Source: a virus. From it: 64,000 nucleotides of DNA. Shown piece after piece: positions 465-61,796 of the stretch (the stretch's first letter is position 1; each line of letters begins with the position of its first letter). Below the pieces are notes generated by a model. It saw only the letters and a list, made by a program, of their open reading frames with translations, was not told where the DNA came from and ran no database searches. The stretch lies in the IMG/VR virus record IMGVR_UViG_3300042879_002524, positions 1 to 64,000 of that record; one strand, 5' to 3'. A program made the position numbers and the translations under genes.

Positions 465-2978
465 TCATTTTCCAAATGAAAAGAACTTTGCTACATTATT
501 ATTTTCAGGAAATGCACCCCAATTCATTGCAGCATAAAAATCATCAAGTTTATTTTTCAATTCCTTTTCAAATATTTTATTGCGATCAATGTATTGTGTA
601 ACAAATTCTACGGTCTGTTCTGGATCTTGATATCCTCGAAGAGCCATTGTTTCCATTCCATATGGATTATCTGATAGGTATGCCCATTTTACTTTTTCTC
701 CATTTTGAATAGGAGTAATGTCTTTGATGCCATACATATGTAAAAAGTCATTGAAATTGATTGCTGCTTTAACGTGTGCAGGTGTTCCTGATATATATCC
801 TGTAAATGGTTTTCTGCCTTTGATGAATTTGGATATTTCTTTAACTCCGGAATTCTTCATTACATTTAATACTTCAGAATTTTTCAATCCAGATTTGAAT
901 TTATGAATCATATCCGATGTAGCTGTTTTATCCTTTTCCTTAAGAATATACCACAATGTTTCTTTCATTATCTTTTTGAAATCTTCTGGGAAAGATGATC
1001 TAACAACGTCCAATCCTTTGATATCCAATTTATCCGTAGGTTTACCTTCTTTGTAAATAACCCATTGTGCATATCTTTTCTTTGCAATCCATAAACCTGA
1101 TTTTGCAATGTATTCTTGTTTGATTTGCCAACGATGTGATTCTGTATTGTGAAACTTAACTGCATATATATCATACATTGCATTAACCTTTTTCTGAACT
1201 TCAGATGCAATTGCATTGGTTTGGTCAATCATAAATTGTTCATCTGATTCATCAAAATCCGGAAATCGCGCTTCAATCAAAGGCAATGAAGAACAAAAGG
1301 TTGAATCTGTATCTGTATAAAATGCAAACTCTGCTGGCATACCGGTTGCATTAATAAAATGATCCTTACCAGTTTCTTTTGCATAATGTGCATTGATAAC
1401 CTTTGCAGAAAACTTAATTACACTTTGACCTGTTGCGGTAATTGCACCGGCATTATCTAAATCATGGAATCGAAATGTTTTAAGTCCTAATACTCCATAA
1501 AATGAATTAAGCAATACTTTTTGTGTTAACTGCATTGCATCATAAAACTTATAATCATCACTACCTACTTCATATTCATCACGCTTATCTTTAAATTCTA
1601 CCCGCTCATCAAACCATTTTGCTAGAATTGTTGGTAAAAATCCTTTTATATCGGTTCGATACACCGTTCCATTGCTAGCAACTGTATATTTATTATCGGT
1701 TAACCATTGTTTAACATCTGTAATCGTTTTGTTTCCAATTTGTACCGATACCGGATCAGTTTTTAATAAACATGTTTCATCCCAATTAGCAATAACTCCG
1801 ATCTTTGTTTCTGGAGATATGTTTAAACTCATAATGATACTCGGATACAGAGATGTTAAATCCAAGTCATATATCCATTTATACAATCCAGGCACCGGTG
1901 CCATTACATATGCACCTGCCAACACATCAGCTGCAGTTTCTTCTTCAATAAAACGGAATTGTTTATTTGGAGCTACATATCCATTACGTTTTAAATCTAC
2001 TATAGCAGCACCATCTAGATATTTAGATGCATAATAAACATCTTCATATGGTACATGTCCTTTATGACATATAGTCCGTGCTAAGTTTATGAACTGTAAC
2101 TTTTCATCTAATTCATAAACCAAATCGGTATCTGTCATGTTGTAAAAAGCAAACTTGTGAATATCTTGTGTAAAAAGAACATCTAAATCACCTTCATATT
2201 CAACTTTACCTCGACCCAATTCTAGTTTTGCAACAGTATCTAATCGATAATTTGGTAATTCGCTGTATGTAAAGTTTTTATATAGTTTCAAATAATCTAA
2301 ACTAGAAACACCAAATATTTTCCATTTTTCCTTTTTTGGATTATAATCTACAATTCCAGCCGGACTTAATTTTTTGATGGCATTTACACCTAATACCTTT
2401 TTAGCACGACCCAATAAATATGGAATATCATATCCATCAGTGTTCCATCCTGTAATTACAGTTGGTTGTACAGCCGCAAATATGTTTATAAATCTGGTTA
2501 AAAGATCTCTTTCGTCTCGAAATATTTCTAAAACATAACCATCGCCTTGTATTTCACGTTCTTTTATGCGATTCAGTTCGTCTAATATAAGTACTCGTCT
2601 ATCATTACCAATTTTATCATAATATGCAATTGATGTTATAGCCGTGCGCGTATCATGTATAGTACTATATCCATTTTCATCTTTTGCTGTTTCAATATCA
2701 AAGAAAAAATCGCGATGTCCTTTTGATACTAAATCTGATTCATAGTATAAATCTATCAGGGTTCGGACTTCTTCATTTAGATCAGATTCGTATGAAGCAG
2801 GATTATCTTTATGATTTCCTGGTATCTGTTTTAATGTAGTGCCGTCTAATGATACATATGTTCCTGCAGAGTCTGGTAAATATGCATATGGTTTAAATGG
2901 AAATTTTTGATGTCCTAATTCATCATCCCACACGTGCATAGTACCGGATTTTCTGTCATATGAAATATTTTGATACAT
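465..2978 (-). CDS. 43: Family B DNA polymerase (T4 gp43-like)
   Basis: This is the replicative DNA polymerase with 3'-5' proofreading, 837 aa against 898 in T4. Exonuclease motifs are visible: ExoI D94-x-E96 (FFFDIETA), ExoII around N179-D184 (GWNTDGYDIPYL) and ExoIII Y279-x3-D283. Polymerase motifs follow in order: motif A DLDLTSLYPS at about 371-380, motif B QKVLLNSFYGVLG at about 486-498 and motif C YTDTDS at about 554-559. The C-terminus ends in a short hydrophobic stretch (AKFFSFGK) that could dock on a sliding clamp; that is inference. The next gene upstream ends directly before its ATG at 2978. A separate family-A-like polymerase gene lies at 16225-17547. Confidence 0.97.
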   Translation of the reverse strand: MYQNISYDRKSGTMHVWDDELGHQKFPFKPYAYLPDSAGTYVSLDGTTLKQIPGNHKDNPASYESDLNEEVRTLIDLYYESDLVSKGHRDFFFDIETAKDENGYSTIHDTRTAITSIAYYDKIGNDRRVLILDELNRIKEREIQGDGYVLEIFRDERDLLTRFINIFAAVQPTVITGWNTDGYDIPYLLGRAKKVLGVNAIKKLSPAGIVDYNPKKEKWKIFGVSSLDYLKLYKNFTYSELPNYRLDTVAKLELGRGKVEYEGDLDVLFTQDIHKFAFYNMTDTDLVYELDEKLQFINLARTICHKGHVPYEDVYYASKYLDGAAIVDLKRNGYVAPNKQFRFIEEETAADVLAGAYVMAPVPGLYKWIYDLDLTSLYPSIIMSLNISPETKIGVIANWDETCLLKTDPVSVQIGNKTITDVKQWLTDNKYTVASNGTVYRTDIKGFLPTILAKWFDERVEFKDKRDEYEVGSDDYKFYDAMQLTQKVLLNSFYGVLGLKTFRFHDLDNAGAITATGQSVIKFSAKVINAHYAKETGKDHFINATGMPAEFAFYTDTDSTFCSSLPLIEARFPDFDESDEQFMIDQTNAIASEVQKKVNAMYDIYAVKFHNTESHRWQIKQEYIAKSGLWIAKKRYAQWVIYKEGKPTDKLDIKGLDVVRSSFPEDFKKIMKETLWYILKEKDKTATSDMIHKFKSGLKNSEVLNVMKNSGVKEISKFIKGRKPFTGYISGTPAHVKAAINFNDFLHMYGIKDITPIQNGEKVKWAYLSDNPYGMETMALRGYQDPEQTVEFVTQYIDRNKIFEKELKNKLDDFYAAMNWGAFPENNNVAKFFSFGK

Positions 2979-3829: not shown

Positions 3830-4606
3830 TCAAACTCCCCTTTTAGTATCATATGCCACGATATGGTCTCTTCCTGTCATGTTATAACCATGGTTAGCAC
3901 ACATTTCAAATACCAACGGATACATTTTAATCAATTCGTCTCTAGTATCACCAGCAGGCATTATGTACGTTTTATCCTTTGGAATATTATGTTGAATCCT
4001 AAACAATTCAATTTCTTGTAGATTCTCTTCAGTACCATCCCAGACTGGTTTATAGTGATAATCTGCGTGATATGCAATCATTTTATCTATCGCTTCGCTA
4101 TTGAGACGGAATTTATTATGTTGCTTAACCATCTTTTCATCCGTAATCGTCCCTTGCGGTGTAGCAACGCCCACAACGGGTACGCTATTGGCAAACTTAG
4201 GACTAATAGAAAGGAGGCCAATAGGGTAATCAGTTTCAATATAATGAGAACCTTCAGTTTCAATAGTAATAAGAATATCTCTTTCATGTGCAAAATGTGT
4301 CAATTCATTAACTAGTGCTGGATGCATTGTCGGGGATCCTCCAGTTAACATCATTTCTTTAATATGTGGATTTTCGTCGTAAATTTTAATAATATCATTG
4401 AATGTAAAAGTACCTTTTTCTGGATGAATTGAACTGTACCAGCTATCGCACCAGCCACCTTCACCAAAATAGCATCGATGAGTGCATCCGGTAGTGCGTA
4501 CTGCGATTGTTGGTCTACCAAATCGGCTTCCTTCTGATTGCACACAACGATATAATTCTATGATTGGCAATGTTTTATTGTAGTCTGTTATTCTTCCTGG
4601 CTTCAT
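3830..4606 (-). CDS. queE: QueE-like radical SAM 7-carboxy-7-deazaguanine synthase
   Basis: It converts 6-carboxytetrahydropterin to 7-carboxy-7-deazaguanine in the preQ0 pathway. The frame is open further upstream, but I chose the ATG at 4606 (258 aa). It follows AAGGAATTT and avoids overlap with the upstream gene. The typical YRCVQSEGSRFG entry and TTGCTHRC cluster motif are present, then MMLTGGSPTMHP. The three cluster Cys (about C41, C45, C53) are spaced C-x3-C-x7-C instead of the usual C-x3-C-x2-C, a departure worth noting. FolE and QueD homologues lie just upstream. Confidence 0.85.
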   Translation of the reverse strand: MKPGRITDYNKTLPIIELYRCVQSEGSRFGRPTIAVRTTGCTHRCYFGEGGWCDSWYSSIHPEKGTFTFNDIIKIYDENPHIKEMMLTGGSPTMHPALVNELTHFAHERDILITIETEGSHYIETDYPIGLLSISPKFANSVPVVGVATPQGTITDEKMVKQHNKFRLNSEAIDKMIAYHADYHYKPVWDGTEENLQEIELFRIQHNIPKDKTYIMPAGDTRDELIKMYPLVFEMCANHGYNMTGRDHIVAYDTKRGV

Positions 4607-4613
4607 AAATTCC

Positions 4614-4985
4614 TTAAAATGGTAGGTCGTCATCGATTGACTCAACACTATTGGTAACATTGGTATCTAATTTTTTAATTAATTCATCAAACTTATTTTC
4701 TAATGAATATAAACGTTCAAGTAAATAACGCAAATCAGCCTGTGCTAATTCAGAAGCAAATGTATCACCGGGTGTAGTTTTGCCAAAGTATTCATCTAGA
4801 AATGATTTTGGATATGTTGCTACTCGATTATATTCTGGTCTAGATAAGTCTGGTGGTAGATCTTGATAAATAACATGAATATTTTTTGACTTTGCAGCTT
4901 CATACACTTTTTGACCTAGTCCACTTTCTCGAGATGCTTTACCACTGTAATCATACAGTGACATATATTGATCATTACTCTTCAT
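4614..4985 (-). CDS. Unknown protein with SSB-like acidic C-terminal tip
   Basis: I do not recognise this 123-residue protein. The N-terminal half has a mixed alpha/beta look (VYEAAKSKNIHVIYQD, then a Pro-rich stretch). Residues about 80-106 form a leucine-rich helix likely to make a coiled coil. The last residues are VESIDDDLPF, which closely mimic the acidic DD-[IL]-PF tip that bacterial SSB uses to recruit repair and replication proteins. It sits between a 71-residue unknown and queE. A role in docking SSB partners is inference. Confidence 0.75.
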   Translation of the reverse strand: MKSNDQYMSLYDYSGKASRESGLGQKVYEAAKSKNIHVIYQDLPPDLSRPEYNRVATYPKSFLDEYFGKTTPGDTFASELAQADLRYLLERLYSLENKFDELIKKLDTNVTNSVESIDDDLPF

Positions 4986-5659: not shown

Positions 5660-6364
5660 TTAATTATTATAACCTTTTACAAATTGATAAAATTCTGATC
5701 TTGCGTTGCCATCTTCTAAAAATGCACCAGATAATTTCGCAGTTTTCATTGAAGCACCACCATGCTTAACTCCTCGACATTGCACACAGTTATGAGTTGC
5801 TTCAATCATTACTGCTACACCTTTATTGTTTTCGATAAGTTCATCAATTGCGTGGTGGATAGCAACAGTTAATTGTTCTTGAATTGCACCTCGTCTGCCA
5901 AAGTGCTCAACTACTCGATTCAATTTACTTAAACCAATAACGTTGCTATTTTCACCCGGAATATATGCAACGTGAACTAGACCCATAATAGTTTGATGAT
6001 GATGGCTACACATTGATGTTAATGGAATACCTCCTTCAAACACAATGCCATCGTATCCATCACTTGGAAATGCTGTAATATCTGACATTGGTTCATATCG
6101 ACCGGCCCATAAGTCATTTACATATGCCTTTGCTACTCGCCGAGGTGTATCAGCCGAGTTTGGATCAGATTCCCATGTTACGCCTAATGCGGTTAAGAAT
6201 TGACCATAATGATATGCAGCTTTATCGATAATAGCTTGTTTTTCTTCTGTAGTCAATCTAGCATCTGGACCTTCAATCGATTGTTTTGTTGCTAACTGAA
6301 TAGAAACTCCATTTGCAAAGCCAGGATGCACTAATTCTAAATTTGTTCTTTGTTTCGTTGTCAT
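5660..6364 (-). CDS. folE: GTP cyclohydrolase I
   Basis: It converts GTP to 7,8-dihydroneopterin triphosphate, the first step toward folate or 7-deazaguanines. The Zn site is intact: C119 and H122 in MCSHHHQT and C193 in HNCVQCRG. The catalytic VIGLSKLNRVVEHFGRR and QEQLT segments match the family, and 234 aa is normal length. It is followed by QueD and QueE homologues with short or no gaps, so here it probably feeds preQ0 synthesis rather than folate. No QueC gene is visible in the window. Confidence 0.93.
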   Translation of the reverse strand: MTTKQRTNLELVHPGFANGVSIQLATKQSIEGPDARLTTEEKQAIIDKAAYHYGQFLTALGVTWESDPNSADTPRRVAKAYVNDLWAGRYEPMSDITAFPSDGYDGIVFEGGIPLTSMCSHHHQTIMGLVHVAYIPGENSNVIGLSKLNRVVEHFGRRGAIQEQLTVAIHHAIDELIENNKGVAVMIEATHNCVQCRGVKHGGASMKTAKLSGAFLEDGNARSEFYQFVKGYNN

Positions 6365-6396: not shown

Positions 6397-7147
<751 letters not shown>

Positions 7148-7166: not shown

Positions 7167-9023
7167 TTATTTTATCTCACACGCTCCACCAGCACAAGCT
7201 AATTCGCCTGATAAGTCGGTATTATCATCTAATTCAATTACTTGACTCAAATCAATATTATGAAGAGATTTCATCATGTTCTCATATGTTTCTTGAGTAC
7301 AATCTTCAAATGGAGCTTGTGTATAAGTTCCGCCATCATATGGCAATACTGATAATCCGTTATAATGATCTCTATTCTCCCACATCCATTCGCCAGCTAA
7401 TTCCCATTCATCTGCTTTAAGTGAAACGGTTGCAGAAACATTGTGAGTATTATTTCCTGATCGGTGTCCTGGTTTAACCCATTCTAGGTGTACCTTTTTA
7501 ATACGATCTAATAATTGGAATGGGGATTCTGTTCTCATAATAGCGCCTTCTGGTGCTTTTTGAGGAATTGAAATAACTGCAGTGTCATGTGGACGGAAAT
7601 ACTCATCTTCAATAAGTTCTGGATGATTGATTGCTAGGTATGAATAAATTGCTTCATTTTTTCCTACACGAATGCGACGAATATAATAATCATTGTGCCA
7701 AGCGTGAATACCTGATGATGTTCCTAATGCTAATGATGTCGTCCCTGCAGGCTTAACTGTGGTAGTACGAGCTGATTTGTTGATTCCAATCAATTCAGCT
7801 ACCCGTACATTTTCTTCTTTAACTGCCTTTGCGGCAGCTTTCATATCATAGCCTAACACTGTTCCAGAACCGATTCCTGTCATGGATACTCCGATAAGGG
7901 CATCTTTCTCAGTCGTACGTTTCCATACTGGACGAAGATAATGAAAATCAGTGTAACCTGCTTGAAGTGTTCCAATAAATGCTGCTGCTCGTACTCTTGC
8001 TTCTAAATCTTCTTGTGATTCGATGTCAGACGCGTTAACTTCACATAAATTACAGAACTGAAATGGTCGTAATGCAATTTCACAACATGGATTCGTTCCC
8101 CAATCTTTATCATTTGTTAAATAAATTCCTGGTTCACCTGCTCCTGACAATTCAACACGTTTCCATAAATCCATAAAGAATTCTTTTGTTAATTTATGAC
8201 GCATTAATGTTGCTGAATTGTTTGCACGCCCTCGTTGTGGATTATGCTCCCACCAATTACCAGATTTGCATGAAATCATTTCTTCATCATCGGCACTAAA
8301 AAGACTAATAAGAGCTGCTCTACGAATACCCCCGGCTAATACTGCATCTGCAATATGACAAACCATATCGTGTACTTCAATAGCAGTTAATTTATCGCCA
8401 TCTTCTTTTGCATCTAAGATACCGGCTAATTTAATTAAACATTCTTTAAGTGGTTGTGGGCCTGGTGCTTTTCCTCCGGATGTTACTAAACGAGCACCTT
8501 TGGCACGAATATCCGAAAAATCAAATGTAAACGTAGATCCACCTTCGAAATACGATTTAACTAATGCCTTTACTGCATCAGCCCATCCTTCGATCGAATC
8601 CGCGATAAGATATCTTCGTGTTTTCTTTGGATTAGGTTTACGAATTTCAGGCAATTTTTCTACGTGATGTGTTTGAACTGAATATCCTACACCAGTACCG
8701 CCTAAAAGTAAAAACATTGCTTCGCCAAATGCTCGATAATCATCAATTGGTAAATATGCACAGTTATAAATTCGGTTAGGGGAGATTTCAATTGGTTTTC
8801 CGCCGAATTGCAAACTACGCATCGATGGTAATACTTTTTTATCATAAACAAATTTATATGCAGCTTCAATTTCATCTCGCAAATGCGGATACTTCTTTTG
8901 ATGCATTTCTTTGTTTCTCGTAACTAATTCTTCCCATGTTTCTCGACGATTGAGCTCGGGAACATACTTTGCATACTTCATGTATACTGTAATTTCACTT
9001 AAAATTTTGTTTGAAATCTCCAT
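7167..9023 (-). CDS. nrdJ: Class II (B12-dependent) ribonucleotide reductase
   Basis: It reduces ribonucleotides, likely triphosphates, to deoxyribonucleotides with adenosylcobalamin, needing no second subunit or oxygen. At 618 aa it resembles the monomeric Lactobacillus leichmannii type. By motif comparison, N311, C313 (thiyl radical) and E315 lie in NPCCEIALRP, and the redox pair is C88 and C324. The C-terminal shuttle Cys C610 and C615 are in CAGGACEIK. The start at 9023 is plausible, with AGAGATTACAAC upstream. A terminator at 9067-9095 separates it from the helicase gene. T4 itself uses class I and III enzymes. Confidence 0.93.
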   Translation of the reverse strand: MEISNKILSEITVYMKYAKYVPELNRRETWEELVTRNKEMHQKKYPHLRDEIEAAYKFVYDKKVLPSMRSLQFGGKPIEISPNRIYNCAYLPIDDYRAFGEAMFLLLGGTGVGYSVQTHHVEKLPEIRKPNPKKTRRYLIADSIEGWADAVKALVKSYFEGGSTFTFDFSDIRAKGARLVTSGGKAPGPQPLKECLIKLAGILDAKEDGDKLTAIEVHDMVCHIADAVLAGGIRRAALISLFSADDEEMISCKSGNWWEHNPQRGRANNSATLMRHKLTKEFFMDLWKRVELSGAGEPGIYLTNDKDWGTNPCCEIALRPFQFCNLCEVNASDIESQEDLEARVRAAAFIGTLQAGYTDFHYLRPVWKRTTEKDALIGVSMTGIGSGTVLGYDMKAAAKAVKEENVRVAELIGINKSARTTTVKPAGTTSLALGTSSGIHAWHNDYYIRRIRVGKNEAIYSYLAINHPELIEDEYFRPHDTAVISIPQKAPEGAIMRTESPFQLLDRIKKVHLEWVKPGHRSGNNTHNVSATVSLKADEWELAGEWMWENRDHYNGLSVLPYDGGTYTQAPFEDCTQETYENMMKSLHNIDLSQVIELDDNTDLSGELACAGGACEIK

Positions 9024-9115: not shown

Positions 9116-10483
9116 TTATCCTAAAGTTCCACCCAAATCTTTGAATTTTTGTGCTAAATTTTTCTTCATAACATTTTCGCCTGTTTTCATAACTTGTGTG
9201 GTCTGTTTGCCTTGTGTTGTTTGTGGCTCAAAAAATTGAAATTGGCCGTTGTTTGTGTTAATTTTACTAGGCAAGGTAATGCCATCTGGGCCGAACCGAT
9301 TCTTAATAACGTGACCTCTACCTGTACCTGACATTTTATCTTCAACCTTACGAGACAATGACATCAAGAAGTCAGCTACCATCACTTTTCCATATGATGA
9401 TGCAATTTTATCTGCTTCAATAATATCTTCTTCTAACGCACTTCGACCTGCTTGTGATGCCGTCCAAACCGGAATATCATACTCACCTGCCATTCCTCGT
9501 AACTCCTCGTAAAGTTCTTCTAATGCCTCGTGTTTGTCCTTTTTTGTATTGATTTTTAACAAATCACCATAATCTACAATTACAACATCTGGCTTTTTAC
9601 CTAGCATAATAGTTTTTTCTAAATGAGCTTTTAATCCCATTACGCCAACTGATTTAGTTGGAAAATATTTTACAATCAAATCACCGCGTAAACTTTTCAT
9701 TTTATCTTCAACTGTGTCTTGATGATTTTTTAAGCTCTGTGCATTAATACCAGTTAATACCGAATCATAACGTTGTCCTACATAATTTTCATTAAGTTCT
9801 AATGTGTAATGTATTACGGTATGACCTGCCTTTACTGCATTAGCTCCAATGTTAATTAAGAGCCATGATTTACCAATACCAGCTGGTGCCATTACTACAC
9901 CTAATTCACCTGGAGCTAATCCGCCGTCCATTAAATCATCAATAACATCCCATCCGGTTGTAATTGTATGACGCGATGCTTCGGCGTATCGAGCTGATAT
10001 ATTAAGTTTATATTCTAACCCAATATTAGTATCAGCACCAGCTTTCATTGCTGTATCAATCTTTGACTTTATTTCATCATAATTTCCACGTTGCAACAAA
10101 TTAACCGAATCCATAATTGCCCGTTTAATTTCCTGATTTTTACAGAAATTAAGTATTTCATCTTTGACAAAACTTAAATCATCTGATTCCATGTATCGGA
10201 ACACATCTTTAAGTTGTTCTAGTATTGCAGTTTTAAGTATAGATTCTGGACCAGATTCACTTAATGCAGTTAATCGAACTTTTAAAACATCTTTTGTTGG
10301 GGGTGTTTTATATTGTTGAAAATGATCTAAAACTGTTTCTAATACCCAATTATTTGCATCTGATTCGAAATACTCTGGGCGAATAATATCGGCAATTTGT
10401 TGTAAAAATATTCGGTCGGTAAACATTGCTGCTAAAACTTTTACTTGAAAGCTCCAGCCATATTCCGATAGTTTATCTGTCAT
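9116..10483 (-). CDS. 41: Replicative DNA helicase (T4 gp41 / DnaB-like)
   Basis: A hexameric 5'-3' helicase of the DnaB/gp41 family, 455 aa (T4 gp41 is 475). An N-terminal helical domain (about 1-155) leads to a RecA-like core. This has Walker A APAGIGKS at 199-206, Walker B VVIVDYGDL at 300-308, a WTASQAGRSA motif around 340 and a GRGHVIKNRFGPDG arginine-finger region. It should load the primase (60852-61796) and unwind DNA ahead of gp43. It is the last gene of the gp32-uvsX-exonuclease-helicase run and is followed by a terminator. Confidence 0.95.
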   Translation of the reverse strand: MTDKLSEYGWSFQVKVLAAMFTDRIFLQQIADIIRPEYFESDANNWVLETVLDHFQQYKTPPTKDVLKVRLTALSESGPESILKTAILEQLKDVFRYMESDDLSFVKDEILNFCKNQEIKRAIMDSVNLLQRGNYDEIKSKIDTAMKAGADTNIGLEYKLNISARYAEASRHTITTGWDVIDDLMDGGLAPGELGVVMAPAGIGKSWLLINIGANAVKAGHTVIHYTLELNENYVGQRYDSVLTGINAQSLKNHQDTVEDKMKSLRGDLIVKYFPTKSVGVMGLKAHLEKTIMLGKKPDVVIVDYGDLLKINTKKDKHEALEELYEELRGMAGEYDIPVWTASQAGRSALEEDIIEADKIASSYGKVMVADFLMSLSRKVEDKMSGTGRGHVIKNRFGPDGITLPSKINTNNGQFQFFEPQTTQGKQTTQVMKTGENVMKKNLAQKFKDLGGTLG

Positions 10484-10519: not shown

Positions 10520-11578
10520 TTATTTTTTATGTGTTTGTTGTGCAAATGCATTTAGTGATAACCATGTATTATTTAACCAATCTGGTAAATTTTTCATAGT
10601 TGACCACATTTTGTCTTCCATGAATAATCTTTGAAATTCCATTTTGTTCATCATTGGAATCGGCTGATCTAATATACCTCGAATTACCGTAGCACTCTGA
10701 GCTGGAATATCTAATAATTTAATATTCATTAAACGATAATTCTTATCAATAGTATCCTGATTTTCTAGTATTTTACCATATGTTTTTGATTCATTTAAAT
10801 TATTAGTGCATTTATTAAATAATGCATCTAACGTAAACTCAGTAGTATCAGCAAGTTCGGGTAATGTTTTTATAATTGTCTTTGGACCTATTCCAGATAC
10901 CCCGGGTATGTTGTCAGAGGTGTCGCCTGTAAATGTTCGATAAATAACATAGTTATTTGGATGTACTCCAAATTCATCTAATAATGCTTGTTCGTCATAC
11001 ATTTTCTTTTTGATAGGCGACCATACTTGAATTGTAGGACTTATTAACTGATAAAAATCTCTATCCGTTGAAACTATGGTAATTTTTTTAGAAATACCTT
11101 GATACATATCAGCAATATATGCAATCGTATCATCTGCTTCGATACCATCAATTGAAATAAATGTTACTGGTAAATTATCTAGATATGATACTAATCGAGA
11201 AAATTGCCAACGCATTGCTTCCTGTTCATCTTCAATTGTAGCAAATTGTTGATGATCGTGTCTACGTAAACGTGTTTTATTTGCTCGATTACCTTTATAA
11301 TCGCCGTAAATCTTTCTGCGACGAGCAGATCCGCCTCTACCATCAAACACGATAACTAACCGAGATGGTTTAAAATCTCGAACTACTTTACCTATTGAAA
11401 ATAAAAATCCAGTAATTCCTCCGATATGATCACCATCTTCATTTGTAGATGGAGTTGCTCCAAACGCTCTAATAAAGGTGTTTAGCCCATCAAGCACCAT
11501 AATATGATCATTGACACTTGATGGACTATTTTCCTTTTCTTGTTGTAACTGTTTGAATAGCTGTTGATACCTGTTCAT
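10520..11578 (-). CDS. rnh: 5'-3' exonuclease / RNase H (T4 Rnh, FEN family)
   Basis: It removes RNA primers and flaps from lagging-strand fragments. It is 352 aa, near T4 Rnh (305). Conserved acidic clusters of the FEN/PIN fold are present: VFDGRGGSARR, SIDGIEADDTIAY, VSTDRDFYQL and TGDTSDNIPGVSGIGPKT; the last is the helix-3-turn-helix DNA-binding region. The stop of uvsX and this ATG overlap by one base at 11578, indicating coupling. The order uvsX-rnh-41 places it in a recombination/replication operon. Confidence 0.93.
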   Translation of the reverse strand: MNRYQQLFKQLQQEKENSPSSVNDHIMVLDGLNTFIRAFGATPSTNEDGDHIGGITGFLFSIGKVVRDFKPSRLVIVFDGRGGSARRRKIYGDYKGNRANKTRLRRHDHQQFATIEDEQEAMRWQFSRLVSYLDNLPVTFISIDGIEADDTIAYIADMYQGISKKITIVSTDRDFYQLISPTIQVWSPIKKKMYDEQALLDEFGVHPNNYVIYRTFTGDTSDNIPGVSGIGPKTIIKTLPELADTTEFTLDALFNKCTNNLNESKTYGKILENQDTIDKNYRLMNIKLLDIPAQSATVIRGILDQPIPMMNKMEFQRLFMEDKMWSTMKNLPDWLNNTWLSLNAFAQQTHKK

Positions 11579-12741
11579 TAAGCTTCTTCGTCTATAACCT
11601 CATCTGTAATAATTACGTCATCAATACCGCCATCGATACCAGCTTGATACTTAAAGATATACGCATCGCATATTCTTTTATACAATCGATCTTTAATCTC
11701 TGGTTGATTGATTACCTTATCTACAAATGTTTTTGATTGAAATTTAATTTCTCCAAATACTTCTCCAGTTTCAATATCAGTGTCATCTAATGTATAATGA
11801 GCTCCTGATTGTTTTACTAGATTGTATTTTTTCATTGTTTCAAGCCATCCACCATAGTTATCAATACCACTATCATAATAGATGTCATAGTTGATTTTTC
11901 GATGCGGAGGACCCATTCTGTTTTTCACTACTTGTACTTCAGTCTTACTTCCTACCACTTGTTCAACGCCTTCAACTTTGGCTTTAATCATTCCAGTATT
12001 CTTAAGACGAAGACGTACAGATGCATGAAATGGAATCGCTTTACCACCCGATGTTGTCCACGCATCGCCGAATGATACCCCTAATTTAGTTCGTAACTGA
12101 TTAGTCATAATCAAACAAATTCTTTCTCGTGCAATCCAGTTAGTTACCTTACGCATTGCTTTTGATAGAATAATTGATTTACTGGTAGCATATCCATCTT
12201 TGTCATATTCAGCAGCCATTTCTATTTTTGTAGATGCACCCATAATAGAGTCAACAATAATAGTAACGAGACGATCTTTATCTGATTTACGTACCTGTTC
12301 AACAATAGTTTCAATTGTTTCAAAAATTTCTTCTACTGTTTCTAATGGAACATATAACATTGATTTCAAATCAATTCCAATAGCTGACATAAATTCAGCA
12401 CTAGTTGCTGCTTCTGTATCAATATAAACTGCTAATCCACCTTTTTTCTGTGTTTCTGCAGCTACATGAGATACTAATAAAGACTTACCTGATGCTTCTA
12501 ATCCGGTAACTTCAGTTATCCGACCTACTGGGAATCCTCCGTTCGATCGGTTTGAAATCGCTAAATCGAGCATATCACAACCAGATGAAATCCATTCTGT
12601 TACATTGCTTGGTGAATCAGCATCTCCTTCTAAAAAGAAAGCTGTTTTAAGAGCTTGCCCTTTAAATTGCTTGTTAATGCTATCAGCTAATGTACTTGCT
12701 AATGAGTCTTCCAGTTCCAGTTTGCTTTTACTCTTTGCCAT
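11578..12741 (-). CDS. uvsX: UvsX recombinase (RecA family)
   Basis: A strand-exchange recombinase for recombination-dependent replication and repair, 387 aa (T4 UvsX is 391). Walker A GLEASGKS at 80-87, Walker B IIVDS at 161-165, the L1/L2-like region with IMTNQLRTKLGV and the C-terminal acidic tail (DDVIITDEVIDEEA) are visible. A strong AAGGAG precedes the ATG at 12741. It lies directly downstream of the gp32-like gene, its natural partner for presynaptic filament formation. Confidence 0.95.
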   Translation of the reverse strand: MAKSKSKLELEDSLASTLADSINKQFKGQALKTAFFLEGDADSPSNVTEWISSGCDMLDLAISNRSNGGFPVGRITEVTGLEASGKSLLVSHVAAETQKKGGLAVYIDTEAATSAEFMSAIGIDLKSMLYVPLETVEEIFETIETIVEQVRKSDKDRLVTIIVDSIMGASTKIEMAAEYDKDGYATSKSIILSKAMRKVTNWIARERICLIMTNQLRTKLGVSFGDAWTTSGGKAIPFHASVRLRLKNTGMIKAKVEGVEQVVGSKTEVQVVKNRMGPPHRKINYDIYYDSGIDNYGGWLETMKKYNLVKQSGAHYTLDDTDIETGEVFGEIKFQSKTFVDKVINQPEIKDRLYKRICDAYIFKYQAGIDGGIDDVIITDEVIDEEA

Positions 12742-12754
12742 TTATAACTCCTTC

Positions 12755-13531
12755 TTAATTAAAAAGATCATTGAATGCTGATGCTACGTCATCAACTTTA
12801 CCTGCTACTGGCTTTGCAGCTTTTGCTGGTGTTGAAACGCCTTGTGCCTCTTCTTCTTCATCAGCTGCTACATCTGAATCTGCATTTTCAGGATTCATCC
12901 ATTCTGTTAATGCAACTTCTAACTCTTCATAAGTTGGTTCAGGAAATATGTCAGTAATTACTGGTTGATTCATAATCTTTTCAGCAATTGCTTTATCTTC
13001 TGTTGCTGGCTGTGTGTTTGGTTTCACTCGAATTGCAGTTTTTGGAAATGCACCACCTTCTGCAGGAGTAAATTCTACATCAATATCACGACCATTCATT
13101 AAATCTGTAATGTCTCCATAGTCTGGATCAGAGATAATTGATAATAGTTCTGCGTAGATAGTTTTACCAAATCCCCAAAACTTTACACCTTCTGCTTCTT
13201 TACCGCGCACGATAACAGGTACATAAGTTCTCATTTTAGGCTCAATTTTACGACCCATCATCCATTCATCCTTATCGCCAGTTTTTTTTAGTTTGTCTGA
13301 AAACTCTACGATTGGATCTGCATTGCCGAATGAGATCGGTGATAACATTGATCTTTTGCCAATGTCGTAATGAAAATACAATTCTAAGAATGGATTGTCT
13401 TTTCTGTGCACATATGGCACGATACGGATTCTTGTTTTACCTGCTTCAGGTTTCCACAAATTGTTTTTCTTTTCATCAGTTTTGTTCAACTGATTGAGTT
13501 TTGCCTTTATGGCATCTAAATTTAAGCCCAT
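12755..13531 (-). CDS. 32: Single-stranded DNA-binding protein (T4 gp32-like)
   Basis: It coats ssDNA at the fork. It is 258 aa against 301 in T4. The OB-fold start KTRIRIVPYVHRKDNPFLEL and the core SPISFGNADPIVEF match T4-type gp32. There is an acidic linker (DVAADEEEEAQG) and a C-terminal AFNDLFN-type tip. No cysteine occurs anywhere, so the T4 zinc-binding module is absent. An 8-bp inverted repeat in its leader (13573-13595) may take part in regulation, as T4 gp32 represses its own translation; that is inference. Confidence 0.9.
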   Translation of the reverse strand: MGLNLDAIKAKLNQLNKTDEKKNNLWKPEAGKTRIRIVPYVHRKDNPFLELYFHYDIGKRSMLSPISFGNADPIVEFSDKLKKTGDKDEWMMGRKIEPKMRTYVPVIVRGKEAEGVKFWGFGKTIYAELLSIISDPDYGDITDLMNGRDIDVEFTPAEGGAFPKTAIRVKPNTQPATEDKAIAEKIMNQPVITDIFPEPTYEELEVALTEWMNPENADSDVAADEEEEAQGVSTPAKAAKPVAGKVDDVASAFNDLFN

Positions 13532-13635: not shown

Positions 13636-14136
13636 TTAAAATAAATAATCCATAATCGTAGAATCACTTATTCCATATTTTGTAGCAATATCTTCATCCT
13701 GTATTTCTACATTTTGAATATCACCATCTTCATCATATGTAACTGTCAAATCGATAGTATCGGTACCAACTTTAAGTTCACAGTCAAATGTAATGTCGGA
13801 TACTAATCTGGTTTGATCATATGCACCAGTTGGATCATTTTTACTTTCAATATCTTGTTTGATGTCGTTCACAATATCTTGAAATGTATTTTTATCATCA
13901 ATTCCAGATCCTTGAAAATACATAGATGTAATACCAGAAATGTTGGTATCATAATCAACTCGGTTAATATGAAGTTTTAAATTCTTAGGATCAAACATTG
14001 GATTACCTGTTCGAGGATCTCGATTGGCACCATCGAATCCTAATTTATTTTCCAAATCACTTAAATCAGCTTCGTGTAGATTTTTTGTATTAAAACGACG
14101 CATATTTTCTGCTAGGATGTTTTCTAGTTTTTTCAT
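13636..14136 (-). CDS. Candidate packaged internal protein with ILAE leader
   Basis: A 166-residue acidic protein of unknown function. It opens with MKKLENILAENMRRFNTKNL, nearly the same leader as the truncated gene at 1-421, ending in L-A-E. The body (about 45-166) has alternating beta-like stretches, for example LVSDITFDCELKVG and IDLTVTYDEDGD, and a C-terminal helix ending in IMDYLF. It is separated by 6 nt from the next leader-bearing gene (14143-14568), with which it probably shares a transcript. I infer cleavage by gp21 and packaging in the head. Confidence 0.72.
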   Translation of the reverse strand: MKKLENILAENMRRFNTKNLHEADLSDLENKLGFDGANRDPRTGNPMFDPKNLKLHINRVDYDTNISGITSMYFQGSGIDDKNTFQDIVNDIKQDIESKNDPTGAYDQTRLVSDITFDCELKVGTDTIDLTVTYDEDGDIQNVEIQDEDIATKYGISDSTIMDYLF

Positions 14137-14142
14137 AATTAC

Positions 14143-14568
14143 TTATTTTGAAAATCGATATGCGTAACTGCTAGTATCGCCGGATTGGATTGCATATGCG
14201 TGTTGTAACATACGATTAAGATTATCTCTTACATCTCGGTAAGTTCCTTGCCATCCGCTATATGTTTTTGAATATGGATATAATTCTAAAAATGCATTTA
14301 TAAAATCCATAGTAGTCGCACTGCCAGGCGTTTTATCTTTATAGATTGATAACAAATCCATCACATCATTTTTAAACTCAGCCATATCAATACGAGCTCG
14401 TTTTATTCTAGAATAGTTTTGTTCTAGTTTAGATAAAAAACTATCCTGTATTCTTTGATCTGCTTCGGCATCTAATCCAGTCGTTTTACCTAATTGTGCT
14501 GGCGACTTATAATCAGCAGGATTCCATTTCTGCTCATCTTCTTTTAATAAATGTTTTAATTTTAGCAT
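14143..14568 (-). CDS. Candidate packaged internal protein with LLKE leader
   Basis: A 141-residue, mostly helical, basic protein of unknown function. It begins MLKLKHLLKE/DEQKW, again a basic amphipathic leader ending in L-x-E. The body contains helical segments (AEFKNDVMDLLSIYKDK, TMDFINAFLELYPYSKTY) and a Tyr/Ser-rich end. AATAGGAATAAC precedes the ATG and the ATATTTAT element is 20 nt upstream. It is the first gene of a two-gene unit with 13636-14136. Confidence 0.7.
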   Translation of the reverse strand: MLKLKHLLKEDEQKWNPADYKSPAQLGKTTGLDAEADQRIQDSFLSKLEQNYSRIKRARIDMAEFKNDVMDLLSIYKDKTPGSATTMDFINAFLELYPYSKTYSGWQGTYRDVRDNLNRMLQHAYAIQSGDTSSYAYRFSK

Positions 14569-14587: not shown

Positions 14588-14595
14588 ATAAATAT
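14588..14595 (-). promoter_or_regulatory. ATATTTAT upstream element (candidate late promoter)
   Basis: The sense strand reads TGATATTTATATAAG. The TGA is the stop of the upstream gene, so the element begins inside the stop codon, 20 nt before the ATG at 14568. Confidence 0.45.
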
Positions 14596-14981
14596 CAATT
14601 CCAAGTAATTTTCTTAAAAAATACCAATCCAACAACACGATATCCAGCATCATCTGTTAATATAAATGAATTTTGATATTTACTCCAATCCAATTGATAT
14701 GTTTTATCTAAAACTCCGTTATTAACCGTTCGTATAACTTCATTAAGTGCATTAACCGTATACAAGGTATTTGTTTCTTTTTTACGGTGTATGCTTATTG
14801 TGTTTTGTCCTCTGCGACCAGAATCGATAGCATTGTATGTGCAATACAAATTGTCTGCATGATCTTCGTTTGCAAATACAAATATTCGACGTTCTGGAAT
14901 CTCGTAGTTATGTTGTATGTATTCGGATATAATGTTTAAATCCGTTTTATGTGCAAATGTGCAAAGTAGTTGTGTTTTCAA
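14595..14981 (-). CDS. Hypothetical protein, 128 aa
   Basis: I do not recognise the family. The protein starts MKTQLLCTFAHKTDLN and has alternating helix and strand segments: an N-terminal helix with EYIQHNYEIPERRIFVF, then NTISIHRKKETNTLYTVNALNEV and a C-terminal RVVGLVFFKKITWN. There is no membrane segment and no evident catalytic motif. Its ATG overlaps the end of the PD-(D/E)xK-like gene by 4 nt, which suggests coupled synthesis and perhaps a shared role. Confidence 0.65.
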   Translation of the reverse strand: MKTQLLCTFAHKTDLNIISEYIQHNYEIPERRIFVFANEDHADNLYCTYNAIDSGRRGQNTISIHRKKETNTLYTVNALNEVIRTVNNGVLDKTYQLDWSKYQNSFILTDDAGYRVVGLVFFKKITWN

Positions 14982-16228
14982 AGTTCATATTCCTCAGTTA
15001 TATCCGTATCGCTTAAATCAATTTTATCTGAACCAATTGCCGTTTCTATTATACGTATTTTTCCGGCATCTATAACTACATATCTAAATTCGTTTGTAAC
15101 TCGTATACGATCTTTTCTAAAAACAATAAATTGTAAATCGTTACCTATAATTGAATCAACAGCTTCTTGTAAATCTACATCTAACATTTCTGGTTGTCGT
15201 ACGTATTTTAATCGACGAAGTTCTGTGTTAATATATGTAATGTCCTGACTACCATCATCGATAGGCTTAATAGTTACTGATCCATCAATTGTTTGTTTTA
15301 ATGGCTCAATTGACATTTCTATAGGAGTAGCATTTGGTCCGCGTAAAATAACATTAGTATATCCTTGTATTTCAGAATTTAATAAGTTAGCTTCTCGATA
15401 AAATTGCATTAAAAATTGTTTATCTTTCATATTTAAATTTCCAGCTAAAATAAATGTGCGCCGATCATCTAAATATGCAATAGAATTTAACAACGATTCG
15501 TTAAAATATTTATGAAATTTAAATTTTGGGTTTTCAACAGTTCCTCGTAATTGATCTAGACGTTTCAAAGTTGTTACTATTTCATCCCAAAATTTAAATC
15601 TAGTAACACTAGCTTTAGTACCCAATCGAATCGATTTAGCATTTCCTTTCCCACCAGTATAATCTTTTATTTCATAGGATCGTCCATTTGCTGTCATATC
15701 AAATGATACTCCGCTGCCGTTTATTCGTGATCCTTTGATTAAAGATGCTAATAAAATTTCACCTTTTCCTATACCCTTAGGTTCTAATTTGAATAAATCA
15801 TGTCCAATGCCGGATTTGAAGTTTATAGTATTTAACTCATCCTCTGTAACATCATTCAATGTATATAACAAAGAAGCAAACATTACAGATTGTTCCGAAT
15901 TCAATTGATTTAAAAAATTTAAAGTTATAGCATCTGCTTCAGTTGGTAATAAATTTAAAAATTCTCGAAATTCATTGGTTTTATTTGCTTGTTGAATTGC
16001 ATTAATTAATAATTGATTTTCGATAGAATCAAATTGTATAGATTCAGTAACGAGTTGTTTAACGTTACCTCGAGCTCGTTCTACAATCAGTCGTGCTTCG
16101 TCTGGAGATATATTTACCACTTCTAATAAAACATCATATAATGTCTCATAATCTTTAGATGCAGTAGGATATCCTTTTGGTAATCGATAACACCATTCTG
16201 TTAATATTAAATTAATGTCTATGTTCAT
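14978..16228 (-). CDS. Putative PD-(D/E)xK nuclease-like protein with L-T-E leader
   Basis: A 416-residue protein. Residues about 150-190 carry what looks like a restriction-endonuclease-fold active site: E157 in GIGKGEILLASLI, D177 in GVSFDMTANG and E186-x-K188 in SYEIKDY. The spacing is right for that superfamily, but I cannot confirm the fold. The N-terminus MNIDINLILTE/WCYRL also resembles the capsid-targeting leaders, so it could be a packaged nuclease. It overlaps its upstream neighbour, the family-A polymerase-like gene, by 4 nt (ATGA). No close named homologue is evident to me. Confidence 0.6.
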   Translation of the reverse strand: MNIDINLILTEWCYRLPKGYPTASKDYETLYDVLLEVVNISPDEARLIVERARGNVKQLVTESIQFDSIENQLLINAIQQANKTNEFREFLNLLPTEADAITLNFLNQLNSEQSVMFASLLYTLNDVTEDELNTINFKSGIGHDLFKLEPKGIGKGEILLASLIKGSRINGSGVSFDMTANGRSYEIKDYTGGKGNAKSIRLGTKASVTRFKFWDEIVTTLKRLDQLRGTVENPKFKFHKYFNESLLNSIAYLDDRRTFILAGNLNMKDKQFLMQFYREANLLNSEIQGYTNVILRGPNATPIEMSIEPLKQTIDGSVTIKPIDDGSQDITYINTELRRLKYVRQPEMLDVDLQEAVDSIIGNDLQFIVFRKDRIRVTNEFRYVVIDAGKIRIIETAIGSDKIDLSDTDITEEYEL

Positions 16229-17547
16229 AACGAGATTGTTTTCATTTTACTATAAATATTAGCAACTTTCACTTTTACTGGAAAATTACCTTGTTCCAAT
16301 GCCTGTTTTATCTGTGGTATGAGTTGTTGAGCTTCTTCAAATTTACTGTCTATCAAAATACTATCATACGTGTACAATATGAGTTTAGTTTCATAGTCGT
16401 GTAATATTTGTTGAACTGTTTGTAATTTTTGCACAGATACCTCCGTTTCCATTGCTTGTAAATAATAGTTAAACACTTTGTTTGCGGTTGGATTTGAAAT
16501 CATATCATGTGTAATTTGTCGTTTTAAAATCGGTGTTTCTATTCGCTTTTTTGTTTTCCAAGTATTCCATAATGAATAAATAAAATCATTTACCTTAGCA
16601 AAAAATGGAACGGATAAAAATTCTCGATCGATTCCACCATATAACAAACGAAATGTTATTTGTTTGCTTTGTTCGTATTGTTCTTCTGTTAATTGTTCAG
16701 TGTCAAAATAGAACCGGCCAAAATATTCATGCACAGATCCAGCCGGTAACTCATATCCAATTATCCTAGCAATCAATCTAACATGATATGCATCAAAGTC
16801 CATTTCCACTAATGCTCCATTATCAAATCTGCTACAAAATGCTGCACGTGTACCATCTTCTTTGTTCATTGCAGCAAAATTGAATCCTCGAGCTGCATTA
16901 CTAGGTCGACCCGTAACCGTGTGATAGTTATAACTTGAATACACTCGACCAGCATTAACTAAATCTGGCATACGGAATGTTTCATTAACAGCTAATCCCG
17001 TGCTTTCAATTTCAGCAAAAACTTTAGGATATATTTCATTGAACCGTAAATATGAAGTTGACAGTTCGGCATTCATACACATCGGCCAAGCATATTTTCT
17101 AATTTTCTGACACATAGCTAAATGTTGTTGTAATGGCACAATTGCATTAACATGTGCTAATGTTTGATGACGTCGCCAATAAAATGAATGAGCCGTTGTT
17201 GGATAATGTGATTCATCATATGCTTCATTGTATGTATACCACCATAACGTCTTTATATCCAATACGGCATCATTTCCTCCGATTTGAAGCCAGGTTTTCT
17301 TGTCATGGACAAATATATTGCGTAATGCTAAAAAGTCTGGCAATCGTTTTGAAAACCCGGTTATCTGTTCTGTATGCCGGATTGGTATTAATCTTTCTAC
17401 ATCATCTTCAGTATAAATATAAATTGCAATAACTGGATTAATAACAGGATGTAATACTGGACTTGATAGTATTGGTATTAACAGAGTTCGCTTCTGTGCA
17501 CAGTATTGCAATATTGCATCAATTTCATCTGCATGATCCGTTATCAT
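16225..17547 (-). CDS. Divergent family A (Pol I-like) DNA polymerase homologue
   Basis: The C-terminal 240 of 440 residues follow the Pol I palm/fingers order. TGRPSNAARGFNF (212-224) replaces the TGR-x-S-x-NLQN element. Motif A is EMDFDAYHVRLIARI with D250. Motif B is SKQITFRLLYGG with K295, F299 and Y303. SNPTANKVFNYYLQAM lies at 351-366, and motif C is LYTYDSILID with D395. The motif B Arg (E. coli R754) is Tyr and the motif C His is Tyr. Residues about 20-125 may be a remnant exonuclease domain without its catalytic acids. Activity is uncertain. A family-B polymerase is also encoded at 465-2978. Confidence 0.75.
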   Translation of the reverse strand: MITDHADEIDAILQYCAQKRTLLIPILSSPVLHPVINPVIAIYIYTEDDVERLIPIRHTEQITGFSKRLPDFLALRNIFVHDKKTWLQIGGNDAVLDIKTLWWYTYNEAYDESHYPTTAHSFYWRRHQTLAHVNAIVPLQQHLAMCQKIRKYAWPMCMNAELSTSYLRFNEIYPKVFAEIESTGLAVNETFRMPDLVNAGRVYSSYNYHTVTGRPSNAARGFNFAAMNKEDGTRAAFCSRFDNGALVEMDFDAYHVRLIARIIGYELPAGSVHEYFGRFYFDTEQLTEEQYEQSKQITFRLLYGGIDREFLSVPFFAKVNDFIYSLWNTWKTKKRIETPILKRQITHDMISNPTANKVFNYYLQAMETEVSVQKLQTVQQILHDYETKLILYTYDSILIDSKFEEAQQLIPQIKQALEQGNFPVKVKVANIYSKMKTISL

Positions 17548-60700: not shown

Positions 60701-60861
60701 GCTATACTATTATTAGTTGCATGTTGTGCAATATGATCAAATAAATTCCTAAATACCTCTCGGTATTCTCGATGGCGTTTTAATGTGCGAATATGAATGT
60801 CAGAACAATGAAAAATTGTATCTACCCATTCTTTTCCAATATCATAACGTTTTATGTCCAT
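57721..60861 (-). CDS. Fused Mre11-Rad50 type nuclease/ATPase (gp47-gp46 fusion)
   Basis: One 1046-aa open frame contains both subunits of the SbcCD/gp46-gp47 complex. Nuclease part, 1-345: CSDIHI (D21, H23), VTGDIVH (D59), LGNHD (N92, H93) and GHDITLLGDIH (H189, H198). ATPase part, from about 373: FDNMFSYGEGN start, Walker A FAANTSGKSS (405-414), long coiled coils with Zn-hook CKYC (C719, C722), signature LTSGMERF near 955, Walker B IAIDEGWGSLD near 984 and a SHVD H-loop. It processes DNA ends for recombination and host DNA breakdown. In T4 these are two genes. No stop or second start is evident at the joint. Confidence 0.93.
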   Translation of the reverse strand: MDIKRYDIGKEWVDTIFHCSDIHIRTLKRHREYREVFRNLFDHIAQHATNNSIAVVTGDIVHSKLDMSPELIEILVEFFEGFMIPTVVILGNHDMNLNNMHRTDAVSPIINVIKNPNIIFVKENGLFQIANVVFNHMAVDVAPTEYIRADQFEAAYKIALHHGAVNSARTDIGYQISNEHVGIDLFAGHDITLLGDIHKPAQFLDDKQTIAYPGSLIQQNHGEALDHGILVWDLPDRSAKFVPIHNDYGYVTLDVQGTTVINAPSRIPNKPRVRIKFSDTSAADMKKMIAAIRKKYDVQDITIQRNSTSIHNEASSSFTIGNVRDVEYQNTLITDYIAVNFPQATSEETDAIRHINRTINSKLPAIESVRHMTWHPIEFEFDNMFSYGEGNVINFENMQDVCGLFAANTSGKSSLLDAITYTIFDKCSKTGKAHEVLNNKKATFRGKFTFEMNGVKYIIERNGIKQKNGHVKVLVDFYTDTENLNGEERSDTNKSIRRYLGTYDDFILTAFSLQADNNNFIEKSQRERKDLLSQFLDITVFEQLYQLAADEIKETAGKLKEYKKTDFAEIIVSTDNIINANHGTIQTLETQEDEFQERRNYLQNQIVSLIETKLPTTYDGPDITKLRKTESDLTEKIDDLQNNIDQSEQTLEDLKTQHVTIKKEIRTYDEPGLLEQLDQLKIFKTNLKQIETQIDKQQGVVNAKQEKINHLAEHEYDPKCKYCTSNVFVQDAIEAQNTIDSDRNILTGLQTTKQDINAEIELLQQYEQRYAELITLRTNLQTKQSAVEKLELQLQIAENELQTKESELETCLERQELFRNNETAITHNKTIDEKITECKQDIDAFTEEIKSIQTQIKSLFGAIEVAKTNKQSALTSLDAYHKLETEYKAYEYYLQTVKRDGIPYELISKAMPKIETEINNVLNQVVDFNMVLQSDGKNINGYIIYDEDNFWPLELTSGMERFISSLAIRIALINVSALPRPNFIAIDEGWGSLDAEHISAVVNLFDYFRTKFDFSIIISHVDSMRDMVDNLIEVNKIDGFSQINHV

Positions 60862-61796
60862 ATCATTCCCATCTTTAACTGCATTAACCGTTCAAATGTT
60901 AATACATCGGTATTTTGTAAAATATTATTTATTGCATGAAATCCCAATTCAGAAGCATCTTTATCTTGTAACTCAACAAAATAAACATTTAATCCTTCTG
61001 ACATGAATCGTTCAGCAATTTGTATTGCATTACGCAAAGCGTCTGCATCTAAACAAAGATATATATCTCGTACTCGTTCTTCAATTATTTTCTTTTGAAG
61101 TGTCGGTTGTATTATTTTACCAAATAATGGTATTGCATTTCTTTTAACAGCAATTGCATCAAATGCACCTTCACATAGTATAATAGGTTCCGCCCAATTA
61201 ATAAACATTTCAAACCCAATAATATCTTTAGATACTTTAGGATTTTTATGTTTTTGCGAATCTGCTTTATAAAATGCTCTGCTAACAAAGTAATTTAATT
61301 GTCCTGCGCTATTGTAACTAGGAATAATTATTTTGCCTGTATACTCACCAGATTCGCAATATCCAATTCGATATTTAATTATATCAAAAACACCAATACC
61401 TCTATTTAATAAGTAGTGCATTGCATTTTTATAATCCGGAGTATTTTTTTTTATCCATAACGGTTTATAATCTTCCGGAAGTTGCAATGTAACAACTTTA
61501 GTTTCGGTATCATTTAATGATTTATATCTAACGTTATTTAATATTTTTTGAAGTTGCTCAAAGTTTTCTTTACCTAAATTTAGTTGTTTAAATAAAGTAG
61601 CAATTGACCGACCTTTTTTATCAGAAATCCAACAATGCCATGGATTTTCACCGGCATGATTTGTGTTAATATTAATTTCTAATTTTGGCTTGTAGTGAGA
61701 AACGAATGGAGAAAAGAATGCTATGTTATCACCAGATGTAGGTTTACCTTTACCTAATACTGATTCTAATAACTGTAATAACTTAATATTCTTCAT
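60852..61796 (-). CDS. 61: DnaG-type primase (T4 gp61-like) with degenerate Zn ribbon
   Basis: 314 aa (T4 gp61 is 342). Toprim motifs: ILCEGAFDAIAVKR and LCLDADAL. The preceding core (LLNRGIGVFDIIKYRIGYC, GKIIIPSYNSAGQLNYFVSRAF) matches DnaG. The N-terminal Zn-ribbon looks degraded: SPFVSHYKPKLEI and NPWHCWIS have lost three of the four expected Cys. It makes RNA primers with the gp41 helicase. The gene's end overlaps the start of the fusion gene by 10 nt. Confidence 0.9.
   Translation of the reverse strand: MKNIKLLQLLESVLGKGKPTSGDNIAFFSPFVSHYKPKLEININTNHAGENPWHCWISDKKGRSIATLFKQLNLGKENFEQLQKILNNVRYKSLNDTETKVVTLQLPEDYKPLWIKKNTPDYKNAMHYLLNRGIGVFDIIKYRIGYCESGEYTGKIIIPSYNSAGQLNYFVSRAFYKADSQKHKNPKVSKDIIGFEMFINWAEPIILCEGAFDAIAVKRNAIPLFGKIIQPTLQKKIIEERVRDIYLCLDADALRNAIQIAERFMSEGLNVYFVELQDKDASELGFHAINNILQNTDVLTFERLMQLKMGMIWT

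Follow-up and report, generated by a model that had tools for sequence, protein, structure and literature searches.

The window, by which we mean the whole 64,000-nucleotide stretch of viral DNA analysed here, carries a gene (16225-17547, minus strand, ATG start) for a 440-residue protein of divPolA1, a family of thumb-less family-A DNA polymerases with a predicted inactive exonuclease. In our judgement this protein is probably an active accessory DNA polymerase, with a 128-residue protein (p128) as its likely cofactor and with the product of an adjacent slot gene supplying an exchangeable nuclease.

The polymerase family is already published, having been described in Virol J in 2024 in a study of Flavobacterium phage immuto and 13 relatives (PMC11348598); the window gene is thus not a new kind of polymerase. 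According to the main text of that study, divPolA1 is an extra PolA present beside a regular PolA, PolB or PolC, with a catalytic palm, a truncated thumb and an inactivated exonuclease; the same text takes a view of the polymerase that agrees with the active accessory role favoured here. What is added by our analysis is the companion protein, the swappable nuclease, the histidine at the steric gate and the fixed locus; no discussion of the first two was found in the main text of PMC11348598. The interest lies in the setting, namely a thumb-less polymerase with a His gate, a universal companion without a PDB fold match, and a nuclease that has a domain exclusive to divPolA1 loci and a cutting part traded among nearly identical phages. 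It also raises the question why a second polymerase is kept, with any type of replicase, in large phages of Bacteroidota-rich waters.

The small polymerase is a member of the divPolA1 family

The 440-residue protein matched the Pfam DNA_pol_A family with an E-value of 4.8e-8 and 32.8 bits, 1.5 bits short of the curated cut-off (34.3 bits, PF00476), and it matched PHROG 17 (DNA polymerase) with an E-value of 4.7e-7. DNA_pol_A was also matched by 36 of 52 relatives (best E-value 1.5e-13), and the cut-off was passed by 8 of the 15 searched records with relatives, in one of the 8 by way of a canonical PolA. A PDB search with the single window sequence gave no match; a family profile of 52 diverse relatives found the Klenow fragment in the PDB with an E-value of 1.7e-6. 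The AlphaFold2 model built from the alignment of these 52 relatives had a pLDDT of 93.9 and a pTM of 0.91, and its top Foldseek match was Klenow (1kfd, E-value 5.9e-20, TM 0.74 by query length), with polymerases nu and theta also among the top matches. Profile, model and motif comparison therefore agree on the palm and fingers of a Pol I fold, motifs A, B and C included. The divergent family-A polymerase of the original prediction is thus real, and it withstood the refuting condition set for it, a predicted structure that lacks a Pol I palm.

The window polymerase aligned with the small PolA of immuto at 30.2% identity over residues 33-430 (E-value 2e-51), which is about 90% of the length, the two proteins being alignable in full. 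All defining features of divPolA1 that we tested were found in the window gene, which belongs to this family. The comparison with other family-A enzymes was made by motifs.

The window polymerase was matched by 246 IMG/VR stretches, and a broader profile detected divPolA1 relatives in at least 560. Close relatives were present in only 6 of 50,697 phage records: the four immuto genomes, Microcystis phage Mel-JY01 and one 484-kb uncultured phage. A scan of bacterial and archaeal genomes returned 8 matches, several of them in Flavobacteriales or other Bacteroidota; all 8 come from metagenome-assembled bins, as would be expected of phage contigs that had been binned with them, and a cellular origin or a prophage was rejected as the source of the gene. 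An assembly chimera of two phages was ruled out by the same gene order in many independent contigs.

Active site, exonuclease region and thumb

Conservation was counted in 52 diverse divPolA1 members, down to about 25% identity. Invariant in all of them were T212, R214 (the Arg of the TGR element), D250, H255, K295, Y303, G304, N360, Q364, Y394 and D395. Motif A (16783-16800, minus strand) reads D250-F-D252-A-Y-H255 and holds the catalytic Asp; motif B, the O helix (16636-16677, minus strand), holds Y291, K295, F299, Y303 and G304, with position 299 being F in 49 members and W in 3; motif C (16363-16368, minus strand) is Y394-D395, again with its catalytic Asp retained. D250, K295, F299, Y303 and D395 are all at the positions at which they had been predicted, and they are conserved across the relatives. 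The two substitutions noticed from the window alone also extend to the family, as the motif-B Arg (Arg754 of Pol I) is Tyr in 50 of the 52 members and Arg in 2, and the motif-C His (His881 of Pol I) is Tyr in all 52. A third one had been missed, namely the replacement of the steric-gate Glu710 of Pol I by His255 in 52/52. Glu is kept at this position in E. coli Pol I, T7 gp5, Roseobacter phage CRP-3, Lactobacillus phage LpeD and Xanthomonas phage phiXF1, and the motif comparison found it also in the canonical PolA of immuto and in one divPolA2.

The 3'-5' exonuclease is predicted to be dead, with its catalytic acids replaced. Sequence and secondary structure, compared without residue-level superposition, placed no conserved acid at the exo motif I site (residues 20-33), in agreement with the earlier description of an exonuclease-like N-terminus that lacks catalytic acids; the only strongly conserved acids in residues 1-107 are E60, D82 and D97. 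From the palm motif IExxG to TGR, divPolA1 has 32 residues as compared to 126 in E. coli Pol I, so that about 94 thumb residues appear to be missing; this estimate depends on the pairing of IESTGL with IERNGV, the first IExxG of Pol I, and not with the later LEYRGL, a pairing that we infer from the flanking sequence. With proofreading and essentially the whole thumb lost, divPolA1 alone should grip DNA poorly. Compared to the E. coli Klenow fragment (PF00476), it has in common the fold, TGR, the aspartates of motifs A and C, the O-helix Lys, Phe and Tyr, and Q364 as the equivalent of Gln849, and it differs in the absent thumb residues and exonuclease acids and in the three exchanges of gate Glu to His, motif-C His to Tyr and motif-B Arg to Tyr.

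The His gate and the motif-C Tyr are unusual and could mean an altered or lost activity. Together with the loss of the exonuclease acids and of the thumb, the substitutions in motifs B and C would fit a catalytically dead relic that is kept as a DNA-binding or structural protein. However, no member of the family departs from either catalytic Asp or from the O-helix Lys and Tyr, and we regard a relic as highly improbable. The invariance of the active site in members with as little as about 25% identity indicates that catalysis is under selection.

Single-subunit RNA polymerases are related to family A, and a His that takes the place of the gate Glu in all 52 members may be read as a sign of an RNA polymerase, a primase or a polymerase tolerant of ribonucleotides. 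Nevertheless, His, too, is bulky and could keep rNTPs out, and the best PDB matches were DNA polymerases, not RNA polymerases of the T7 type. Most records, moreover, encode a DnaG-type primase, which in the window lies at 60852-61796 (minus strand; PHROG 47, E-value 4.7e-27; Toprim_2), so divPolA1 is not needed as a primase, and a role as a primase substitute was ruled out. We consider an RNA polymerase, a primase or a ribonucleotide-tolerant enzyme very unlikely.

The polymerase is retained beside a canonical replicase

The window also encodes a gp43-like family-B DNA polymerase of 837 residues (465-2978, minus strand; PF00136, E-value 4.2e-37; PHROG 262, E-value 2.1e-172), the presumed replicase, so the family-A gene indeed stands beside a family-B one. 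PolB was found in 13 of the 15 records searched, that is in the window record, in 10 of 11 IMG/VR contigs, in Mel-JY01 and in the 484-kb phage; immuto has no PolB and carries a 778-residue canonical PolA instead. As a side observation, in the 484-kb phage W01 (LR756508.1) PolB is split over two open frames of 1022 and 625 residues (260623-266900). The regular PolA of immuto is encoded by a gene of its own next to GroES and GroEL, in agreement with the main text of PMC11348598. That phages keep the small polymerase irrespective of their replicase points to a distinct task and supports its earlier reading as an accessory rather than a fork enzyme.

The position of the divPolA1 locus is fixed, between the tail genes and a replication cassette of ssb, uvsX, FEN nuclease and helicase, in that order. 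In the window these genes, all on the minus strand, encode a gp32-like ssDNA-binding protein (12755-13531; assigned by Pfam and conserved order), which is the first of the cassette, a UvsX/RecA recombinase (11578-12741; Pfam and PHROG matches), a FEN-type 5'-3' exonuclease resembling T4 RNase H (10520-11578; PF02739, E-value 3.8e-32) and a DnaB-like replicative helicase (9116-10483; Pfam and PHROG matches). Gene 1 of immuto encodes the small PolA, and the genes for ssb, recombinase, exonuclease and helicase come after it. PolB, or another canonical polymerase, would copy the genome, and divPolA1 would fill gaps or extend 3' ends during phage replication and recombination; its location before ssb, uvsX and the FEN nuclease suggests that this takes place in recombination-dependent replication. 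Only 37 nt separate the tail genes from the divPolA1 gene, so late expression is possible, which would be less in keeping with replication. In 8 of 9 records the search for an ATP-dependent ligase was negative, so that sealing would fall to a different ligase or to that of the host.

The location directly after the tail genes would also suit a virion-associated system, in which the nuclease and perhaps the polymerase are packaged and injected. The prohead protease of T4 cleaves at (L/I)-x-E, and the N-termini of the slot protein, of a 141-residue protein and of a 166-residue protein (MNIDINLILTE, MLKLKHLLKE and MKKLENILAE) resemble T4 capsid-targeting peptides. However, divPolA1 and p128 have no such N-terminus, and conservation in the slot domain spans about 60 residues, well past the putative cut, so that packaging of this system seems extremely improbable. 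The genes at 6623-7147, 13636-14136 and 14143-14568 have N-termini of this kind ending in (L/I)-x-E, and their products are possible packaged internal proteins.

p128 is a constant partner of the polymerase

The gene for p128 (14595-14981, minus strand) has a TTG start that overlaps the slot gene. It was present in 147/147 polA loci whose downstream sequence exceeds 4 kb; not all of these loci are independent. A search that started from p128 gave 75 new loci; polA was found in 52 of them, the other 23 had too little upstream sequence, and there was no counterexample. Both genes occur in the same 6 of 50,697 phage records. We conclude that p128 is an obligate, constant partner of divPolA1.

The conserved core of p128 is HRKKxTNTxYTxNALN, and its fold was predicted with a pLDDT of 95.0. 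A known replication factor was not recognised in it, as no Pfam, PHROG, PDB-sequence or PDB-fold match was obtained; its one fold match in BFVD is an uncharacterised phage protein, and the predicted fold is apparently undescribed. Among 96 loci the distance matrices of polA and p128 correlated with r 0.92, and with ssb, uvsX and exo controlled the partial correlation was 0.575, the highest of polA among four genes; since neighbouring genes share their history, we take these values as supportive. Genetic linkage is not proof of physical interaction, and a mirror-tree correlation of neighbours is weak evidence for it. Functionally, p128 would be a polymerase cofactor, possibly one that grips the duplex as the thumb would otherwise do.

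The slot gene and its exchanged cassettes

The distances between polA and p128 cluster near about 20 nt and at about 1.2 kb or more. The short gap, without a slot gene, is that of the immuto clade; the large gaps hold proteins that share an N-terminal domain of about 60 residues. In the window this slot gene (14978-16228, minus strand) encodes 416 residues, the N-terminal domain (ILTEW.YRL..GYP; 16049-16228, minus strand) and a predicted PD-(D/E)xK-type nuclease, with a 4-nt overlap between its start and the polymerase stop. All 155 matches of the domain in the first set of loci were in the slot. Of 145 further loci from a domain-based search, 14 were not testable, and in the remaining 131/131 the domain was downstream of divPolA1, directly after polA in 111 and after polA plus one inserted gene in 20. 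A general phage domain was considered and rejected, as the domain was not found away from divPolA1. In the clade of Mel-JY01 it is a free ORF of 56-64 residues.

The C-terminal parts of the slot proteins form about 15 unrelated groups. In 16 of 75 pairs of loci with polA at least 95% identical the C-termini were unrelated; loci L076 and L080, for example, are 99.9% identical in nucleotide sequence over polA and the N-terminal domain, then unrelated for about 1.1 kb, and then 99.4% identical. Wholesale replacement of the cassette was seen in the window (14978-16228) and at L076, L080, L072, L073, L066 and L221. Homing endonucleases are also inserted in the slot, and in one clade a NUDIX hydrolase ORF lies between polA and p128 (L242, 10673-11077).

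The 416-residue protein is described as a PD-(D/E)xK-like nuclease on the basis of its signature G-x-GKGE157 ... D177 ... E186-x-K188-D-Y (15665-15760, minus strand), and this reading, made earlier from the window, is strengthened by the invariance of the triad (E157, D177, E186-x-K188) in 15 relatives. Hhalign paired the signature positions with three other cassette families, with scores driven by the shared N-terminal domain, and several cassette families retain an E-D-(E/S)xK signature. Neither the window slot protein nor its family profile matched Pfam, PHROG, PADLOC or the PDB, and searching the PDB with profiles of three slot families was likewise negative. Among the slot proteins, known defence families were limited to homing-type endonucleases and weak single matches. 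As to the predicted coupling of the polymerase gene to a nuclease-like and to a 128-residue protein, it is the latter that proved constant; the nuclease is not, as the immuto clade has no gene in the slot, which elsewhere holds unrelated C-terminal cassettes.

The exchange of whole C-termini between near-identical loci, the recurrence of the E-D-(E/S)xK signature and the restriction of the N-terminal domain to divPolA1 loci would agree with a conflict module, in which divPolA1, p128 and the slot nuclease act against the DNA of competing phages or of the host, the swapped cassette provides a variant specificity, and the polymerase repairs or copies at the cut. On the other hand, selection that acts only on the nuclease may account for the swapping, the window slot protein matches no known defence nuclease, and the immuto clade keeps the polymerase and p128 without a slot gene, which indicates that the core pair has a job of its own. 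We consider such a module unlikely. The suggestion of defence evasion found no support in the case of the polymerase; a conflict role is plausible for the slot gene only, from the cassette swapping.

If the accessory role of the polymerase is adopted instead, the slot protein would act with the polymerase or with p128 through its conserved N-terminal domain, and its exchangeable nuclease could make ends or nicks. It is doubtful, yet conceivable, that divPolA1, p128 and the slot N-terminal domain form one complex, made of a thumb-less polymerase, a detachable grip (p128) and a docked swappable nuclease. If true, this would amount to a modular machine of polymerase and nuclease in which the effector part is polymorphic, and no replication or conflict system described so far would resemble it.

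Comparison with related enzymes and phages

The divPolA1 of immuto resembles that of the window in gene order, in being a second polymerase, in the kept palm residues, in the lost exonuclease acids and in the reduced thumb; the two clades differ in the slot nuclease between polymerase and p128, present in that of the window and absent in that of immuto, a difference that does not exclude common membership. The divPolA2 enzymes of barbaviruses and others, as described in the main text of PMC11348598, are likewise extra short PolA-like enzymes beside PolB and without exonuclease; they lack a conserved neighbourhood according to that text, have no detectable sequence relation to the window polymerase and retain Glu in motif A. 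Polymerases theta and nu are also exonuclease-inactive accessory family-A enzymes, but they are eukaryotic, with a full thumb and special insertions that were not observed in divPolA1.

Besides replication genes, the window encodes a QueE-like radical SAM protein (3830-4660) and a GTP cyclohydrolase (5660-6364), which are parts of the 7-deazaguanine pathway; immuto has the full set, including a DNA guanine transglycosylase. A TGT-type transglycosylase was not detected in the window's record, and two relatives gave weak sub-threshold matches. At 7167-9023 the window encodes a short (618 residues) class II-like ribonucleotide reductase with a B12-RNR insertion domain; at the corresponding position immuto has the two-subunit NrdA/NrdF type.
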